Positions 4,787-9,950 of a stretch of 18,898 nucleotides of DNA are shown here, piece after piece. The stretch comes from Candidatus Nealsoniibacteriota bacterium (lineage in GTDB: Bacteria; Patescibacteriota; Minisyncoccia; Minisyncoccales; GWA2-38-27): assembly GCA_003559065.1 (NCBI GenBank), contig PWMZ01000034.1:1-18898 (forward strand). The letters run 5' to 3'. Position 1 is the stretch's first letter, and every line of letters starts with the position of its first letter. Position numbers and translations under genes: made by a program. The notes under the pieces were generated by a model. The model searched no databases. It was given only the letters and a program-made list of their open reading frames with translations, and was not told the origin of the DNA.

Positions 4787-4859
4787 GCCCTCATAACTCA
4801 ATTGGTAGAGTAGCTGACTCTTAATCAGTTTGTTCCAGGTTCGAGTCCTGGTGAGGGCA
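4787..4859 (+). tRNA. tRNA-Lys (anticodon CTT)
   Basis: Complete cloverleaf of 73 nt. Acceptor GCCCTCA pairs with TGAGGGC; D stem ACTC/GAGT; anticodon stem GCTGA/TCAGT with loop CTCTTAA and anticodon CTT at 4820-4822; T arm CCAGG/CCTGG with loop TTCGAGT; discriminator A4859. CCA is not encoded. The gene begins 5 bp after the pilin-like stop codon, so it is probably cut out of that mRNA. It reads AAG codons and, having C34, is not a substrate for the Elp3-type modification predicted nearby. Confidence 0.96.
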
Positions 4860-4880
4860 CTAAAAATTAATTATAAAAAT

Positions 4881-5825
4881 ATGAAAACAAAAGATATTTA
4901 CAATTTAGCAATTAAAATGGGGATAGAGTCTGATTTTAGGGGTGGAGAAAGAATTAAACAGAATCTTTCAAGAAAAAAGAAAGAATATGAAAAACTTTCT
5001 GACGAAGAAAAACAAACGTTTGACCAAGAGTCTTTGAGTAATCCTTTTTTAGATTCTAGGATTTTACATATAGCTCAAGATAAAGAAATCAAAAAGATCT
5101 TATTCGGTATTGACATGGAACCAGCTGAATTGTTGTTAGCCAAAGAACTAAAAGATATTGATTTGGTTATCTCTCATCATCCTTTAGGGATAGGTCTTTC
5201 TCACTTGGCCGACGTTATGGAGTTGCAAGCGGAAGTTTTAAATCAATATGGGGTGCCCATTAATATTGCTGAAAAATTAATGAAAGAAAGAATTTCCGAA
5301 GTAGCCAGGGGGATAAATTCCGTTAACCACCAAAGAACAGTTGATGCGGCCAAGCTTTTAAACTTGAATTTAGCTTGTTTTCATACCGTTTGTGATAATT
5401 TAGCAGCTAACTTTTTGAAGGAAAAAATTGAAGAAAAAGATTTTGAGAGAATAGGAGAATTGATGAATTTTTTAAAGACTATTCCGGAGTATAAAGAGGC
5501 TGATAAAATAGGAGCTGGCCCCAAAGTTTTTGTTGGCGAAAAAGATAACTATTGTGGCAAAATTGCTTTAACTGAAATTACTGGCGGGACGGAAGGTTCT
5601 TCTAAAATTTACGAAAAAATGGCCCAAGCAGGGCTGGGAACGGTTATTGGGATGCATGTTTCCGAAGAACATAAAAAAGAAGCTGAACAAGCTAATATAA
5701 ATATGGTTATAGCCGGCCATATATCCTCTGACTCTTTAGGGATTAATCTTTTTTTAGATCAATTAGAAAAAAAAGGAATTGAAATTATTCCTTGCTCGGG
5801 GTTAATTAGGGTTTCAAGGATTTAA
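4881..5825 (+). CDS. NIF3-like dinuclear-metal protein
   Basis: 314 residues from ATG 4881; in-frame upstream starts would lie inside the tRNA. The NIF3/YbgI family forms hexameric toroids with a dinuclear metal site; its biological reaction is unsettled (some members are labelled GTP cyclohydrolase I type 2, a name not to be trusted here). The metal-site pattern is visible: ISHHP with H99 and H100, D172 in HTVCD, and H280 in AGHISSD. The final ligand of the H-x3-E pair, normally Glu, is Asp284 here. An N-terminal stretch of about 70 residues, rich in Lys and Glu, precedes the core. The 3' end overlaps elp3 on the other strand by 20 bp. The family call is firm; the function is unknown. Confidence 0.88.
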   Translation: MKTKDIYNLAIKMGIESDFRGGERIKQNLSRKKKEYEKLSDEEKQTFDQESLSNPFLDSRILHIAQDKEIKKILFGIDMEPAELLLAKELKDIDLVISHHPLGIGLSHLADVMELQAEVLNQYGVPINIAEKLMKERISEVARGINSVNHQRTVDAAKLLNLNLACFHTVCDNLAANFLKEKIEEKDFERIGELMNFLKTIPEYKEADKIGAGPKVFVGEKDNYCGKIALTEITGGTEGSSKIYEKMAQAGLGTVIGMHVSEEHKKEAEQANINMVIAGHISSDSLGINLFLDQLEKKGIEIIPCSGLIRVSRI

Positions 5826-7335
5826 CCATATAGGTATCTTTCAATCTGTAACCTAGTTTTCTATAATAATCTCTTACTCCTACTCCGGAAATAACGGCTA
5901 TTTTGAAATAGCCTTTTTGGGCGGTCATTCTTTCTGCTTCTTTAATCATCTTTTTCCCTAAACCCTTGTGCTGGGCTGACAACAAGCTCTTTTTTTCTAA
6001 AGGATTAACTTTGCCAAAAGTATGAACCTCTCTTATTAAAGCAGCTTTTTTTAAAGTAGAAATAAAATGTTTTTTTTCTTCAGGTAATCTTAATCTTAAT
6101 AAACTATATAATTTAGTTTGGGATTTGTTTTCAAAAGATAAAAATATTTCTTTTCCTTTTGATGCCTGATATTCATTTTTAAAAAGGAAAAGTTTTTCTT
6201 TTAAATTATAATTTTCTTTTACCTCTCGGCACCTAATACAAGAACATTGAGCACCCTTTTTTTGTAAAATTTGTCTTAGGTTAGATATCTTTGTTGGCCC
6301 GGAAATTATTTGTCTTGAAGGAATATCTCTTACTAACCTTTGAATTCGACAATACAAAGGAATATCCGCTTTTATCTTAATTAGAAGGTCGGTTAATTCT
6401 TTTTCCGAATAATGGTGATATTTTTTTTCTTTCCAGAGTTTGTAAAGAGGAGCTTCTTTCAACAAAGCGCAAGGGTAGATTTTTAAAAGATCGGGTTTAA
6501 AATTGTCATTGTTGAAAACCTCTTTGAACATTTGCTCGTCTTTTTCAACATTTGAACCTAAGAGATTGGGCATTAAATGATAACAAATCTTAAAGCCCGC
6601 TTTTTTTAATAAACAGGTAGCTTTAATAACCTTTTCTCGATCGTGTCCTCTTTTATTTTTTTTTAAAACATCATCATAAATACTTTGGACTCCTAATTCT
6701 ACCCTGGTGACACCCAGTTTTCTCATTCTAATTATTTCTTTCTCGTTGATAAAATCAGGCCGAGTTTCTACAGTAATACCAATAATTCTTTGTTTTGCTT
6801 TTTCGTTTCTTTTTTGGGATTTTTCTAAACTTTTTTCTTGGTAATTGTTAGCAGCGGCAAAGCATTGGGTAATGAAATAAGTTTGATATTTCTTTTCCAA
6901 AAAAGACCAAGTTCCTCCCAAAATAATAAGTTCTATTTTGTCGGTAGGATGACCCGAGTTTTTTAGAGCTTGCAATCTTTTTTCAACCTGGGCATAAGGA
7001 TCAAAATTACAACCGATAGCTCTCATTACCGCCGGCTCGGTAGAAAAATAGCTTTTAGGCATTCCTTTTTCTTCCGGGCAAAAAATACATTTTCCTGGAC
7101 AAGGATAAGGTTTAGTTAATACTGAAACGACAACTATCCCCGACAAAGACCTAACTTTCCTGGTTATTAAAATGTTTTCTAGATAAGGGTCTGGTTTTTT
7201 ATTTTTCTTTTTGCAAAAAAGATGATATTCTTTTAATAAGTCGGCGTTAGAAGGCATAAGAGTTCCCCTCTTTTTGCATAAAGATCTTTTGAAAGCCTCT
7301 AACTCTTCCTTATTTTTAATTGATTTTAGTTCCAT
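5806..7335 (-). CDS. elp3: Elp3-family radical SAM/GNAT tRNA U34 modification enzyme
   Basis: 509 residues with both Elp3 halves. The radical SAM part carries C79-x3-C83-x2-C86 in PYPCPGKCIFCP for the 4Fe-4S cluster, the preceding SLSGIVVVSVL strand, LIILGGTW, and ELGVQSIYDDVL followed by RGHD. A CSCIRCREV segment matches the Elp3 zinc-binding region. The C-terminal acetyltransferase part shows the acetyl-CoA loop QHKGLG (455-460) and SGVGVRDYYRKLGY (483-496), a hallmark of the family. In archaea and eukaryotes Elp3 makes the 5-carboxymethyl group on wobble uridine; activity in this bacterium is inferred. No other Elongator subunit is in the window, as expected outside eukaryotes. The ATG at 7335 overlaps the start codon of a Trm9-like methyltransferase on the other strand. 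The 3' end overlaps the NIF3-like gene by 20 bp. Confidence 0.93.
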   Translation of the reverse strand: MELKSIKNKEELEAFKRSLCKKRGTLMPSNADLLKEYHLFCKKKNKKPDPYLENILITRKVRSLSGIVVVSVLTKPYPCPGKCIFCPEEKGMPKSYFSTEPAVMRAIGCNFDPYAQVEKRLQALKNSGHPTDKIELIILGGTWSFLEKKYQTYFITQCFAAANNYQEKSLEKSQKRNEKAKQRIIGITVETRPDFINEKEIIRMRKLGVTRVELGVQSIYDDVLKKNKRGHDREKVIKATCLLKKAGFKICYHLMPNLLGSNVEKDEQMFKEVFNNDNFKPDLLKIYPCALLKEAPLYKLWKEKKYHHYSEKELTDLLIKIKADIPLYCRIQRLVRDIPSRQIISGPTKISNLRQILQKKGAQCSCIRCREVKENYNLKEKLFLFKNEYQASKGKEIFLSFENKSQTKLYSLLRLRLPEEKKHFISTLKKAALIREVHTFGKVNPLEKKSLLSAQHKGLGKKMIKEAERMTAQKGYFKIAVISGVGVRDYYRKLGYRLKDTYMVKSLKP

Positions 7336-7984
7336 GAGAAAAAAATATGCTCAATATTTAATTAAAAAGACTCAAGCAGATTATAACTTGAATTCGGTTG
7401 ATTTTGCAAACGCGAGAAAATATTTACCTGATGACCTAAAAGAATTAGCCCAAATAGCTGAAGAAGGAAATAATGTTTTAGACGCTGGTTGCGGTACCGG
7501 CTATTTGTTTCCTGCCCTAAAAAAGACAAATTATGTGGGTGTTGATTTTTCTCAAAAGCTTATTAAAATAGCTGAAAAAAGATATCCTGAAGCTTCCTTT
7601 AAAAGAATGAATATTTTAAATTTACAATTTAAAGACAATTATTTTGACAAGGTTTTTTCTGTTGGCGTTTTACATCAAATACCTTCTTTCAAAAAAAGAC
7701 TAGAGTTTTTGAAAGAACTGAAAAGAGTTTTAAAAAAAGATGGAGTTTTGATAATTAGGGTTTGGAACTTATGGGAGAAAAAGAGAAAGATAATTCTAAA
7801 ATATTTTTTTCATCCCAAACTTGATTTTAAAGATATGTTTTTACCTAAAAACAAAATGTATTATCATGCTTTTACCTTGAAAGAACTGGAAAAATTAGTC
7901 AAAAAAGCCGGTTTTTCCGTTCAAAAAAGCTATGTCAAAGGCAAAGGAGTAAAATCTAACATTTATTTAGTTGCAGTTTTTTAG
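7334..7984 (+). CDS. Class I SAM methyltransferase resembling Trm9/ALKBH8 (wobble-uridine methylester enzyme candidate)
   Basis: 216 residues from ATG 7334; an upstream in-frame ATG at 7274 lies deep within elp3 and would add 20 unremarkable residues. Motif I VLDAGCGTG (48-56), acidic D71 after strand 2, FDKVFSVGVLHQIP (104-117) and RVLKKDGVLII (131-141) define a class I fold. Family-level hints of Trm9/ALKBH8 are the FANAR segment (24-28), the lone W after strand 5 (VWNLW, 143-147), and the late YYHAFTLKEL (176-185), which corresponds to the RYYH...EL signature of Trm9. Trm9 methylates cm5U34 to mcm5U34, the step after Elp3, and the gene is head to head with elp3. The fold is certain; the Trm9-like assignment is a motif and context inference. 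A generic UbiE-like small-molecule methylase remains possible. Confidence 0.8.
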   Translation: MRKKYAQYLIKKTQADYNLNSVDFANARKYLPDDLKELAQIAEEGNNVLDAGCGTGYLFPALKKTNYVGVDFSQKLIKIAEKRYPEASFKRMNILNLQFKDNYFDKVFSVGVLHQIPSFKKRLEFLKELKRVLKKDGVLIIRVWNLWEKKRKIILKYFFHPKLDFKDMFLPKNKMYYHAFTLKELEKLVKKAGFSVQKSYVKGKGVKSNIYLVAVF

Positions 7985-7999
7985 CTTTTGTGTTATTCT
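7971..7999 (+). promoter_or_regulatory. Putative sigma70-type promoter for rpsT
   Basis: TTGCAG (7971-7976), a 17-bp spacer, then TATTCT (7994-7999). The -10 ends 8 bp before the S20 ATG, so transcription would start about two bases before it, giving a nearly leaderless mRNA. The -35 lies in the 3' end of the methyltransferase gene. Each hexamer matches consensus at 4 of 6; no experimental support. Confidence 0.4.
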
Positions 8000-8007
8000 A
8001 TTTGCAT

Positions 8008-8271
8008 ATGCCAGTTACTAAATCAGCCAAAAAATCTTTGAGACAAAGTTTTAAAAGAAGAAAACAAAACTTAGTTTATAAAAGAAAATTGAAAAAACTT
8101 CTAAAAGAAGTTGATGTTTGTGTTTTAGAAAAAAATAAAGAAAAAGCGAAAGAGCTTTCACCCTTAATTTATAAAGCTTTAGACAAGATGGCAAAAAAAG
8201 GAATTTTGAAAGAAAACACCGTTGCTAGAAAAAAATCAAAGATTACTAAAAAGCTAAATTTCAGCGATTAA
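8008..8271 (+). CDS. rpsT: 30S ribosomal protein S20
   Basis: 87 residues, the usual S20 length, very basic. The N-terminus MPVTKSAKKSLRQS matches the S20 signature (normally SAxKRxRQ), and KGILKENTVARKKS near the end matches the G-x-(I/L)-(H/K)-x-N-x-A-x-R-K-x-S pattern. ATG 8008 is chosen because family members start just before PxxKSAxK; an earlier TTG would add six residues. S20 binds 16S rRNA at the bottom of the 30S body. The gene sits 23 bp after the methyltransferase and overlaps holA, on the opposite strand, by 18 bp at the 3' end. Confidence 0.95.
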   Translation: MPVTKSAKKSLRQSFKRRKQNLVYKRKLKKLLKEVDVCVLEKNKEKAKELSPLIYKALDKMAKKGILKENTVARKKSKITKKLNFSD

Positions 8272-9162
8272 AATTTCTAACCCTGCCTCCGGTTCTATTT
8301 TCCCCTGTTTAATACTAGTATCTATCAAAAATATTTTTTGATAGATTTTTTTTAAGTCATCCAAAGAAAATTTTATCAACAAAGGAGTGATTTTTTTAAT
8401 TACGAAAAAATGAAGGCCACTTTTTTTAAAAGAAAGATTTTTTTCTTCCAATTCTTTCAAAATGATCAAGTTTTTGAACTGATAACTAATCATTAAAAGC
8501 AGGTATAAAGGAGAGTCACCTTTTTCTAAATGATTTTGGAGTAATCTTAAGGCTTGAGATTTATCTTTTTGAGAAATGGCTTCTATTGTCTTGAAAACAT
8601 CTGATTTTGTTTCCCTATTAGTTAAAAGTAAGATTTCTTTTTCAGTAATTTTTTTAGAATAACTGGTTAATTTTTCTATTTCATTATTTACTTTCCAAAG
8701 ATCATTTGAGTCCACCAAAAGACTCAGAGCTTGACTGTCTATTTCTGCGCCCCTCTTTTTAATTTCTTTTTCAGCCCAATTTTTAATTTTATAAGGGGTT
8801 AAAAGATTGAATTTTTGATATTTAACATTTTTTAGTAAATAAGAAACCAAAGAATCTTTTTCATTTAACTTTTGATTTTCAGAAATCAAAATAATATTTT
8901 TTGATGAGATAAACTCTTCAACTTTTTGGAAAAAATCTTCTTTAAATTTTTTGTTTTTGAAAAGATTTTCCATTAAAATCAATTTTTTTTCTTCGAATAA
9001 AGAACTTTGAGAGTTTTTTTCTTTTAACTCTTTTAAAGAAGATTCTAGGCAATCTAAGTATACAAAACTAAGGCCGTTTTTTTCTTTTTTGTAATAGTCT
9101 AGGATTTCTTTTACTTTTTTTTTGAGCCTAAAATTATCTTCACCGTAGAAAAAAATAATCAT
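8254..9162 (-). CDS. holA: DNA polymerase III delta subunit (clamp-loader wrench)
   Basis: 302 residues. The N-terminus MIIFFYGEDNF is the typical HolA opening (a P-loop-like fold without a working Walker A). It is followed by LILMENLF, IILISE, the FNLLTPYKIKNWAEKEIKKRG linker region, DLWKVNNEIEKL, SDVFKTIEAIS and SPLYLLLMISYQFKNL, all positions conserved in DNA polymerase III delta. The subunit opens the beta clamp in the loader. The start at 9162 overlaps the mutM stop as ATGA, implying translational coupling; an upstream TTG would add seven residues. It is the last gene of the minus-strand run and converges on rpsT. Low overall sequence conservation is normal for HolA, so the call rests on pattern, length and context. 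Confidence 0.88.
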   Translation of the reverse strand: MIIFFYGEDNFRLKKKVKEILDYYKKEKNGLSFVYLDCLESSLKELKEKNSQSSLFEEKKLILMENLFKNKKFKEDFFQKVEEFISSKNIILISENQKLNEKDSLVSYLLKNVKYQKFNLLTPYKIKNWAEKEIKKRGAEIDSQALSLLVDSNDLWKVNNEIEKLTSYSKKITEKEILLLTNRETKSDVFKTIEAISQKDKSQALRLLQNHLEKGDSPLYLLLMISYQFKNLIILKELEEKNLSFKKSGLHFFVIKKITPLLIKFSLDDLKKIYQKIFLIDTSIKQGKIEPEAGLEILIAEI

Positions 9163-9950
9163 AGTTTTTGGCAAAAGGAGCAAAAATGACTACTCCTATT
9201 GTTTATTTTTATTCTTTCTATTTTTTTTTGACATCTTGGGCAGGGACGACCCTCTTTCCTGTAAACCTTTCTTTTTTGGTCAAAGGTTCCTTTTTCCCCT
9301 TGTAAGTCTTTATAGTCCGAAACACTAGCTCCTCTTAACTTTATTCCTTTCTTCAAAACTTGCTTTATATTCTTAAAAAGTATTTTTTTTTCAACTAAAG
9401 AGATATCTTTCAAAGGGTGGATTTTGCTTTCCCACAAAATCTCGTCGGCGTAAATGTTTCCTATACCTGAAATAATTTTTTGATTCATTAAAACTTTTTT
9501 TATATTTCCTTTTTTAGGTAAAATACCTTTAAATTCTTCAAAAGAAATTTCTAAAGGATCAGGCCCTATTTTAGAGAGAATTTCTGTTAATTCTTTTTTT
9601 GACAAAAGTTCAATCTTAGCAAATTTTCTCAGATCTGATAAAGCTAGCGTTTTTTTGTTATCAAGATAAAAAATTACTCTTAGGTATTGATTCTTAGGTA
9701 ATTGATCATAGAGCAAGTAACCGGTTAGTTTTAAATGAATCAGTAAGTAATAATCATTGGAAAGAGAAAAAATGAGGTTTTTCCCTTTTCTTTCTATCCT
9801 CTTTATTTTAGCTCCTTTTATTGTTTTTTTAAATATTTTAAAGTCTTTTTTTATAATTTTTTTAGTATCGGTCCAAAGACCAACAAAGGTCCGATTAAGG
9901 ACCTTTGTTAAATCTTTTCTAATTGTTTCTACTTCCGGGAGTTCAGGCAT
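9159..9950 (-). CDS. mutM: Formamidopyrimidine-DNA glycosylase (Fpg/MutM)
   Basis: 263 residues, close to the family's 270. The mature N-terminus PELPEVE carries the catalytic Pro2 and Glu3, and Lys57 lies in the RKGKNL strand. The helix-two-turn-helix is seen as NQKIISGIGNIYADEILW (156-173). A Cys4 zinc finger closes the protein (C237, C240, C257, C260) with R252 in the finger loop. It excises 8-oxoguanine and FaPy lesions and nicks by beta/delta elimination; the Fpg-type finger and N-terminus favour MutM over Nei. The start overlaps the upstream receiver stop by 8 bp and the stop overlaps the holA start (ATGA). Confidence 0.96.
   Translation of the reverse strand: MPELPEVETIRKDLTKVLNRTFVGLWTDTKKIIKKDFKIFKKTIKGAKIKRIERKGKNLIFSLSNDYYLLIHLKLTGYLLYDQLPKNQYLRVIFYLDNKKTLALSDLRKFAKIELLSKKELTEILSKIGPDPLEISFEEFKGILPKKGNIKKVLMNQKIISGIGNIYADEILWESKIHPLKDISLVEKKILFKNIKQVLKKGIKLRGASVSDYKDLQGEKGTFDQKRKVYRKEGRPCPRCQKKIERIKINNRSSHFCSFCQKL

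Follow-up and report, generated by a model that had tools for sequence, protein, structure and literature searches.

An elp3 gene paired head to head with a Trm9-like methyltransferase gene in Patescibacteria: a candidate Trm112-free pathway to mcm5U34

Several systems have been described that modify the wobble uridine (U34) of transfer RNA (tRNA). In eukaryotes these are Elongator, with Elp3 as its catalytic subunit, and the Trm9-Trm112 complex (ALKBH8-TRMT112), which contains an S-adenosylmethionine (SAM) methyltransferase. Passages of PMC5372719 state that both yeast Trm9 and human ABH8 require Trm112, and that archaea possess Trm112. The same source pairs the Elp3 of Haloferax volcanii (HVO_2888) with a predicted Trm9 (HVO_1032 or HVO_0574), the genes being clustered in Sulfolobus solfataricus, and PMC6367351 reports (m)cm5U34 in H. 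volcanii. Recombinant archaeal Elp3 yields 5-carboxymethyluridine (cm5U34) in vitro (PMC5372719, PMC13315578); by the account in PMC13315578, a single report of in-vitro Elp3 activity preceded that 2026 paper. The C5 of U34 is also modified in bacteria by MnmE/MnmG (MnmC), and a bacterial Elp3 is known from Dehalococcoides mccartyi (DmcElp3, 5l7j). The subject of this report is an 18,898-nucleotide stretch of DNA (the window; contig PWMZ01000034.1 of assembly GCA_003559065.1, Candidatus Nealsoniibacteriota bacterium) in which elp3 lies head to head with the gene of a Trm9-like class I SAM methyltransferase. The products of these two divergent genes probably act one after the other in a single pathway of wobble-uridine modification, in which Elp3 would form cm5U34 and a Trm112-free Trm9-like enzyme would convert it to 5-methoxycarbonylmethyluridine (mcm5U34).

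The locus shares features with each of these systems. Like the eukaryotic pathway, it has the catalytic Elp3 and a SAM methyltransferase with the counterparts of R29, H115 and N271. It differs in that the bacterial Elp3 is expected to act as a single subunit, in the head-to-head genes, in the lack of a Trm112 match over cut-off, and in that thiolation would be the task of MnmA. The archaeal arrangement is similar in that Elp3 stands alone and is joined by a predicted Trm9, the two genes being clustered in Sulfolobus. Unlike it, the present pair belongs to a bacterial phylum in which MnmA is present and Trm112 is without a match over cut-off; the Trm9 sequences compared here are fungal. The MnmE/MnmG pathway also acts on C5 of U34 in bacteria, but neither MnmE nor MnmG passed its cut-off in any of 60 genomes. 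The Elp3 of D. mccartyi is likewise bacterial and has the same catalytic residues. A bacterial or Patescibacterial Elp3-Trm9 pair was not found among the listed titles and abstract openings of the openly licensed PubMed Central (PMC) literature, in which PMC10849945 mentions elp3 in Thorarchaeia.

The source genome is 466 kb in 71 contigs and 78% complete. In the initial annotation, a full Elp3 with radical SAM cluster, CxCxxC region and GCN5-related N-acetyltransferase (GNAT) domain was described as divergent from a class I methyltransferase with the motifs YYHAFTLKEL, FANAR and VWNLW. Both descriptions held. The Elp3 is full length by TIGR01211 (558.7 bits against a curated cut-off of 350, residues 5-507), with the Elp3 of Methanocaldococcus infernus (6ia8) as its best solved match at 433.6 bits and DmcElp3 at 389.9 bits. 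A list of residues for the lysine acetyltransferase (KAT) half of DmcElp3 is given in section 6 of PMC6367351 (K77, K193, E386, H388, Y441). By alignment, these correspond to K133 and K249, which lie outside the GNAT stretch, and to E436, H438 and Y490. All catalytic residues checked are thus kept, namely the Fe-S cysteines, the zinc cysteines and the five KAT counterparts. The three methyltransferase motifs all lie within the 216-aa frame that starts at ATG 7334. The mechanical open reading frame (ORF) opens at TTG 7274, and the family alignment (30 sequences, the window's own included) begins at or near ATG 7334. The ATG start codons of the two genes overlap in the palindrome CATG. The matched parts of the two genes also touch at another locus, L048, with a gap of -1.

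Across the 30 aligned sequences the methyltransferase family has the N-terminal consensus DYNLIAEDFSRTR and the C-terminal elements PW...RYYHxF and NIYLIA. The counterparts in yeast Trm9 (P0121) are VYNEIAPHFSQTR, VPW...RYYHLY and NWWVVA. In a search of solved structures with the family profile, Trm9 of the Trm9-Trm112 complex (5cm2) was first, at 79.2 bits and E 2.8e-21, over profile positions 25-215 of 230. This match spans the N-terminal, core and C-terminal parts. The uncharacterised 1ve3 was level with it at 79.0 bits (best stretch 32-167), and 3sm3 was third at 75.9 bits (37-222). The profile comparison with Trm9/ALKBH8, UbiE and other class I families that had been called for gave Trm9 as the best match among solved structures, level with 1ve3, and most tRNA-site residues are kept. 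One relative, P0014, already carries the name TRM9 from JGI, so a database hint at Trm9 identity may exist.

It has been reported that mutation of R29, H115, R241, Y243 or N271 in yeast Trm9 lowers both tRNA affinity and kcat (passages of PMC5372719). Counts of these residues drew on 79 of 80 public loci, L097 being left out for a stop or frameshift; 71 of the sequences are linked to Elp3. The five residues are found in 71, 69, 55, 28 and 67 of these, respectively, against 9, 4, 7, 21 and 18 of 51 background enzymes (P0070-P0120). A quick tree was computed from 86 rows (including 36 of the 71 linked sequences, 26 of the 51 background enzymes and 14 fungal sequences). It places the fungal Trm9 proteins among those of Patescibacteria and apart from 24 of the 26 background rows, with two background rows inside and modest support (87 SH-aLRT).

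Some points limit this identification, and they concern the window's own enzyme most. By its own sequence it is a divergent member of the family: at the five tRNA-site positions it has R, H, M, Y and N, so that R241 is lost to Met, and as a single-sequence query it places Trm9 third among solved structures. A fungal-only Trm9 profile, built from sequences among 120 listed matches (yeasts where named), gave 43.7-56.2 bits for the window's clade (P0001-P0007), which overlaps the best background enzymes. The scores, taken without regard to adjacency to elp3, were 57.6-108.2 bits for P0008-P0065, 32.7-64.0 for P0066-P0069 and 12.7-54.3 for P0070-P0120. The AlphaFold model is within 1.7 root-mean-square deviation of Trm9 over 165 residues; however, the class I fold is generic and many class I enzymes equal or beat Trm9 by Z, so the structural comparison is not decisive. 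The protein (METHYLTRANSFERASE) is called Trm9-like because of these profile scores, the generic fold and the modestly supported tree, and it is not called Trm9 because no Trm112 partner was found over cut-off.

The pairing of elp3 with the methyltransferase gene recurs in other Patescibacteria, as had been proposed for examination. The near set comprises the window's genome and 59 relatives, as does every set of 60 genomes cited here. It was searched with the methyltransferase, orthologues being cut at E 2.1e-23, and with the Elp3 profile at its cut-off. An orthologue of the methyltransferase is present in 41 genomes and Elp3 in 42; 39 have both, 16 neither, three elp3 only and two the methyltransferase only (Fisher p=8.7e-10). 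When all methyltransferase matches at E <=1e-10 are admitted, weak paralogues included, the counts become 40 both, seven methyltransferase only, two Elp3 only and 11 neither (p=5e-6). Of the 39 genomes with the pair, 38 have the two genes on a single contig in divergent orientation, with a median gap between matched parts of 24.5 bp (<=200 bp in 35 of 38, maximum 3283). The remaining genome, G025, has an Elp3 contig that ends within a divergent methyltransferase fragment. The exceptions include contig ends: the methyltransferase of G048 is at a contig start, and among the Elp3-only genomes (G024, G017 and G057) the Elp3 of G024 begins at a contig edge. The other methyltransferase-only genome, G012 (L154:2183-3199), has an elp3 fragment head to head with a methyltransferase bearing an in-frame stop, apparently a joint decay of the pair or a sequencing error. 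Only two elp3 pieces, with no methyltransferase nearby, were seen in G015 (L153).

In a sample of 192 genomes, drawn evenly across the phylum, Elp3 is found in 69 at E <=1e-50 (67 over cut-off). The methyltransferase profile at E <=1e-28 picks out 46 genomes, all 46 of which have Elp3, the genes being divergent on one contig in 40 (p=2e-27). At E <=1e-20, which admits core-only matches, there are 64 genomes with the methyltransferase: 49 have both genes, 15 the methyltransferase only, 20 Elp3 only and 108 neither (p=2e-16). These fixed cut-offs replace a by-eye pick of 49 genomes, which had taken in G133 and left out similarly broad matches in G069, G108 and G110. Among public genome contigs, Elp3 is present in 72 of the best 80 of 264 methyltransferase loci and divergent in all 72, mostly within a few hundred bases (2.1 kb at L114 and 3.5 kb at L106). 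The titles of the 80 loci name Nealson-, Staskawicz-, Berkel-, Portnoy-, Gribaldo-, Campbell-, Moranii-, Magasanik-, Peregrini-, Falkow-, Buchanan- and Woesebacteria, which are candidate phyla of the Patescibacteria. The remaining titles are other Patescibacteria or Parcubacteria, unclassified bacteria and one Nanoarchaeia bin. The near and public sets overlap, as contigs of L048, L055, L056, L058 and L070 match in length those of G002, G023, G036, G032 and G021, respectively. The pairing is far above chance.

Outward neighbours of the pair vary. With genes called mechanically, the largest cluster beyond the methyltransferase has 17 members in 69 loci and the largest beyond Elp3 has 18 in 60, so conservation extends to the two genes rather than to a longer block. 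The first of these clusters (L052 and 16 others) is SLOG/LOG-like by eye and is a possible third partner.

Searches for mnmE, mnmG and a Trm112 homologue, also named as checks at the outset, gave none over cut-off in the window's genome, which is incomplete as stated above, or in the other pair-bearing genomes. Neither MnmE nor MnmG passed in any of the 60; the best weak matches, 49.1 against 252.6 bits and 22.6 against 524.85 bits, respectively, cover short stretches. In the phylum sample MnmG is present in five of 192 genomes, none of them with Elp3; this gives p=0.16, so a phylum-wide mutual exclusion of Elp3 and MnmG is not claimed. MnmA, which makes 2-thiouridine (s2U34), is over cut-off in 51 of 60 genomes, including the window's, in which a contig end truncates the gene. 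No genome among the 39 with the pair has a Trm112 domain (PF03966) over cut-off, while the same model passes in seven of 14 control genomes. It does pass in five of the 60 genomes, in open frames of 299-365 aa, but none of the five has the pair, and a missed Trm112 partner was rejected on this basis. One of the five matches was read (L044:1489-2424 of G057) and is a class I methyltransferase. By eye and by PF03966, it has an N-terminal Trm112-like stretch, a fused activator arrangement.

In the proposed mechanism, Elp3 alone, as in archaea, would add the carboxymethyl group to U34 from SAM and acetyl-CoA. The Trm9-like enzyme would then methylate the cm5U carboxylate with SAM to give mcm5U, acting without Trm112. 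If MnmA, the bacterial thiolase, also acts, mcm5s2U could be the end product in some tRNAs. This route would replace that of MnmE/MnmG, for which these genomes gave no match over cut-off. The substrate, the product, the order of the steps and the independence from Trm112 are predicted from the sequences. The pathway is the one suggested by the initial annotation, and the profile, pairing, MnmE/MnmG and Trm112 results all support it as a candidate, its chemistry being predicted.

Other readings of the methyltransferase have to be weighed. Together with Elp3 it may act at U34, or elsewhere in the tRNA, and give a different product, such as another ester or a ring or ribose methyl group. The generic fold, a structural list led by the tRNA methyltransferase METTL6, the absence of a Trm112 match and the incomplete conservation of R241 and Y243 would all suit such an enzyme. 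It is nevertheless considered unlikely, as R29, H115 and N271, whose mutation affects both kcat and the affinity for tRNA in the yeast enzyme (PMC5372719), are nearly invariant and the match to Trm9 extends from the N-terminal to the C-terminal stretch. A related proposal is that the enzyme, as a Trm9, still depends on an activator whose sequence has diverged beyond the reach of PF03966. The dependence of yeast Trm9 and human ABH8 on Trm112 is in its favour, as is a match just under cut-off in the pair-bearing genome G058 (19.5 against 22 bits, open frame 284 aa). This too is thought improbable, given the PF03966 result of 0 of 39 with a model that detects half of the controls, and the lack of a third gene bound to the pair as tightly.

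A small-molecule or other methylase, with the head-to-head order merely an old shared promoter, would be in keeping with single-sequence matches to DVU1556-, UbiE- and BioC-type profiles. The UbiE/BioC/MetW type was rejected as a candidate, since the 25 listed of 34 NCBIfam models are all under cut-off (for example TIGR01934, 54.8 against 158.35). The neighbours are shuffled while the pair is retained, the gene is nearly limited to Elp3 genomes, the pair appears to decay jointly in G012, and in some genomes that lack the methyltransferase its place is taken by a different enzyme; this reading is therefore very improbable. Consecutive action of Elp3 and a Trm112-free Trm9-like enzyme on U34 is accordingly the preferred explanation.

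The different enzymes beside elp3 form a side lead. In G057, which has Elp3 without the methyltransferase, the divergent slot holds a 200-aa DUF7411 protein (L034:856-1458; PF24167, an ATP-pyrophosphatase of the MJ0690 type), whose best solved relative is the uncharacterised MJ0690 (3k32). A relative with 69% identity to it (L151:4915-5517) lies 617 bp upstream of elp3 in G017, with one gene between. DUF7411 occurs in only these two of the 60 genomes, and the chance of both being among the three Elp3-only genomes is 0.0017. Among the 14 controls, four have Elp3, and three of these (M. jannaschii, H. volcanii and M. acetivorans) are the ones with DUF7411. Stand-alone proteins of the asparagine-synthetase type adjoin elp3 in the phylum genomes G080, G116, G130, G157 and G200 (PF00733 in the four scanned), and four of the five lack a methyltransferase match at 1e-20. 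In G130 the gene is immediately before elp3 in the same direction. In G116 the gene runs off the end of its contig, and a methyltransferase match is on another contig. One gene separates the two in G080, a SLOG cluster4 gene (PF18306; L133:1877-2437). The best solved relatives of these proteins are asparagine synthetases and CarA (77-88 bits), against 26 bits for the thiolase TtuA. No close relatives of their alignment were found in the other 187 phylum genomes. Overall, ATP-pyrophosphatases are found in six of 23 Elp3-only stretches (140 kb) and in none of the 80 methyltransferase loci (722 kb; p=7e-5). The queries came from five of the six stretches, and the five rows of the alignment (A3) come from the five genomes its search returned. 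This lead was spotted by looking, so both of its p-values are after the fact.

The enzyme that converts cm5U to 5-carbamoylmethyluridine (ncm5U) is described as unknown in yeast in PMC3110198, and ncm5U has been reported in Thermoplasma (PMC5372719). Together with the ATP-pyrophosphatase relationship, this makes amidation of cm5U by these neighbours a natural guess; they may instead perform thiolation or another ATP-driven step. No paper on ncm5U together with asparagine synthetase was found in the openly licensed PMC literature. It is tentatively suggested, as a possibility short of an even chance, that the neighbour of elp3 sets the fate of cm5U34 in Patescibacteria: the Trm112-free Trm9-like enzyme would lead to mcm5U (mcm5s2U with MnmA), and the asparagine-synthetase-like or DUF7411 proteins to ncm5U. 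Neither the methyltransferase nor an ATP-pyrophosphatase was seen in 17 of the 23 Elp3-only stretches, so this idea leaves a part unexplained.

The features are collected in Table 1. The ORF of the DUF34/NIF3 gene ends just within the 3′ end of elp3; a DUF34/NIF3-like gene, that of L048, belongs to the cluster adjoining elp3 at 18 of 60 loci. Three tRNAs were the only RNA features found in the window.

Table 1. Coordinates of the gene pair, its motifs and the surrounding features (window positions unless a locus is named)
Feature	Position	Strand	Remarks
Trm9-like class I SAM methyltransferase	7334..7984	+	216 aa; PF08241; 5cm2; AlphaFold mean predicted local distance difference test (pLDDT) 95.4
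SAM-binding VLDAGCGTG, taken to be motif I	7475..7501	+	L49, D50, G52, C53 invariant in 30 aligned
R28 (yeast Trm9 R29)	7415..7417	+	R in 71/71 linked
H114 (yeast Trm9 H115)	7673..7675	+	H in 69/71 linked
M175-Y176-Y177-H178 (Trm9 R241-Y-Y243-H)	7856..7867	+	R in 55/71 linked, M here
N209 (yeast Trm9 N271)	7958..7960	+	N in 67/71 linked
elp3, radical SAM and GNAT protein expected to carboxymethylate tRNA U34	5806..7335	-	509 aa
Elp3 [4Fe-4S] motif CxxxCxxC (C79/C83/C86)	7078..7101	-	aligned to 5l7j C23, C27, C30
Elp3 zinc motif CxCxxC (C364/C366/C369)	6229..6246	-	same Cys in 6ia8 and 5l7j alignment
Elp3 GNAT (KAT) half, approximate limits	5809..6198	-	alignment with 5l7j
CATG, overlapping elp3/methyltransferase starts	7333..7336	.	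sequence
DUF34/NIF3 gene (PF01784)	ORF 4830-5825, protein 4878-5822
Ribosomal protein S20	7990-8271
DNA polymerase III delta	8254-9183
tRNA-Lys(CTT)	4787-4860		flanked by a pilin-like gene of type IV secretion system (T4SS) kind and the DUF34 gene
Asparagine-synthetase-like genes by elp3	L133:1054-1905, L143:4219-5034, L148:1636-2424, L140:1710-2513, L161:4334-4767

In many Patescibacteria, elp3 and a Trm9-like gene go together. Since many small uncultivated bacteria have back-to-back relatives of the first and last genes of the mcm5U mark, the mark is probably also made in bacteria, with fewer proteins. If so, two small proteins would allow bacteria to form an mcm5 side chain of the eukaryotic and archaeal type, perhaps together with bacterial thiolation. 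The pair would offer a minimal system for the study of Elp3 and a Trm9-like enzyme that may act without Trm112. The other neighbours of elp3 provide a test for the enzyme behind ncm5U; if the suggestion made for them is true, the asparagine-synthetase-like and DUF7411 proteins would be candidates for the long-missing cm5U-to-ncm5U enzyme, DUF7411 in archaea too.

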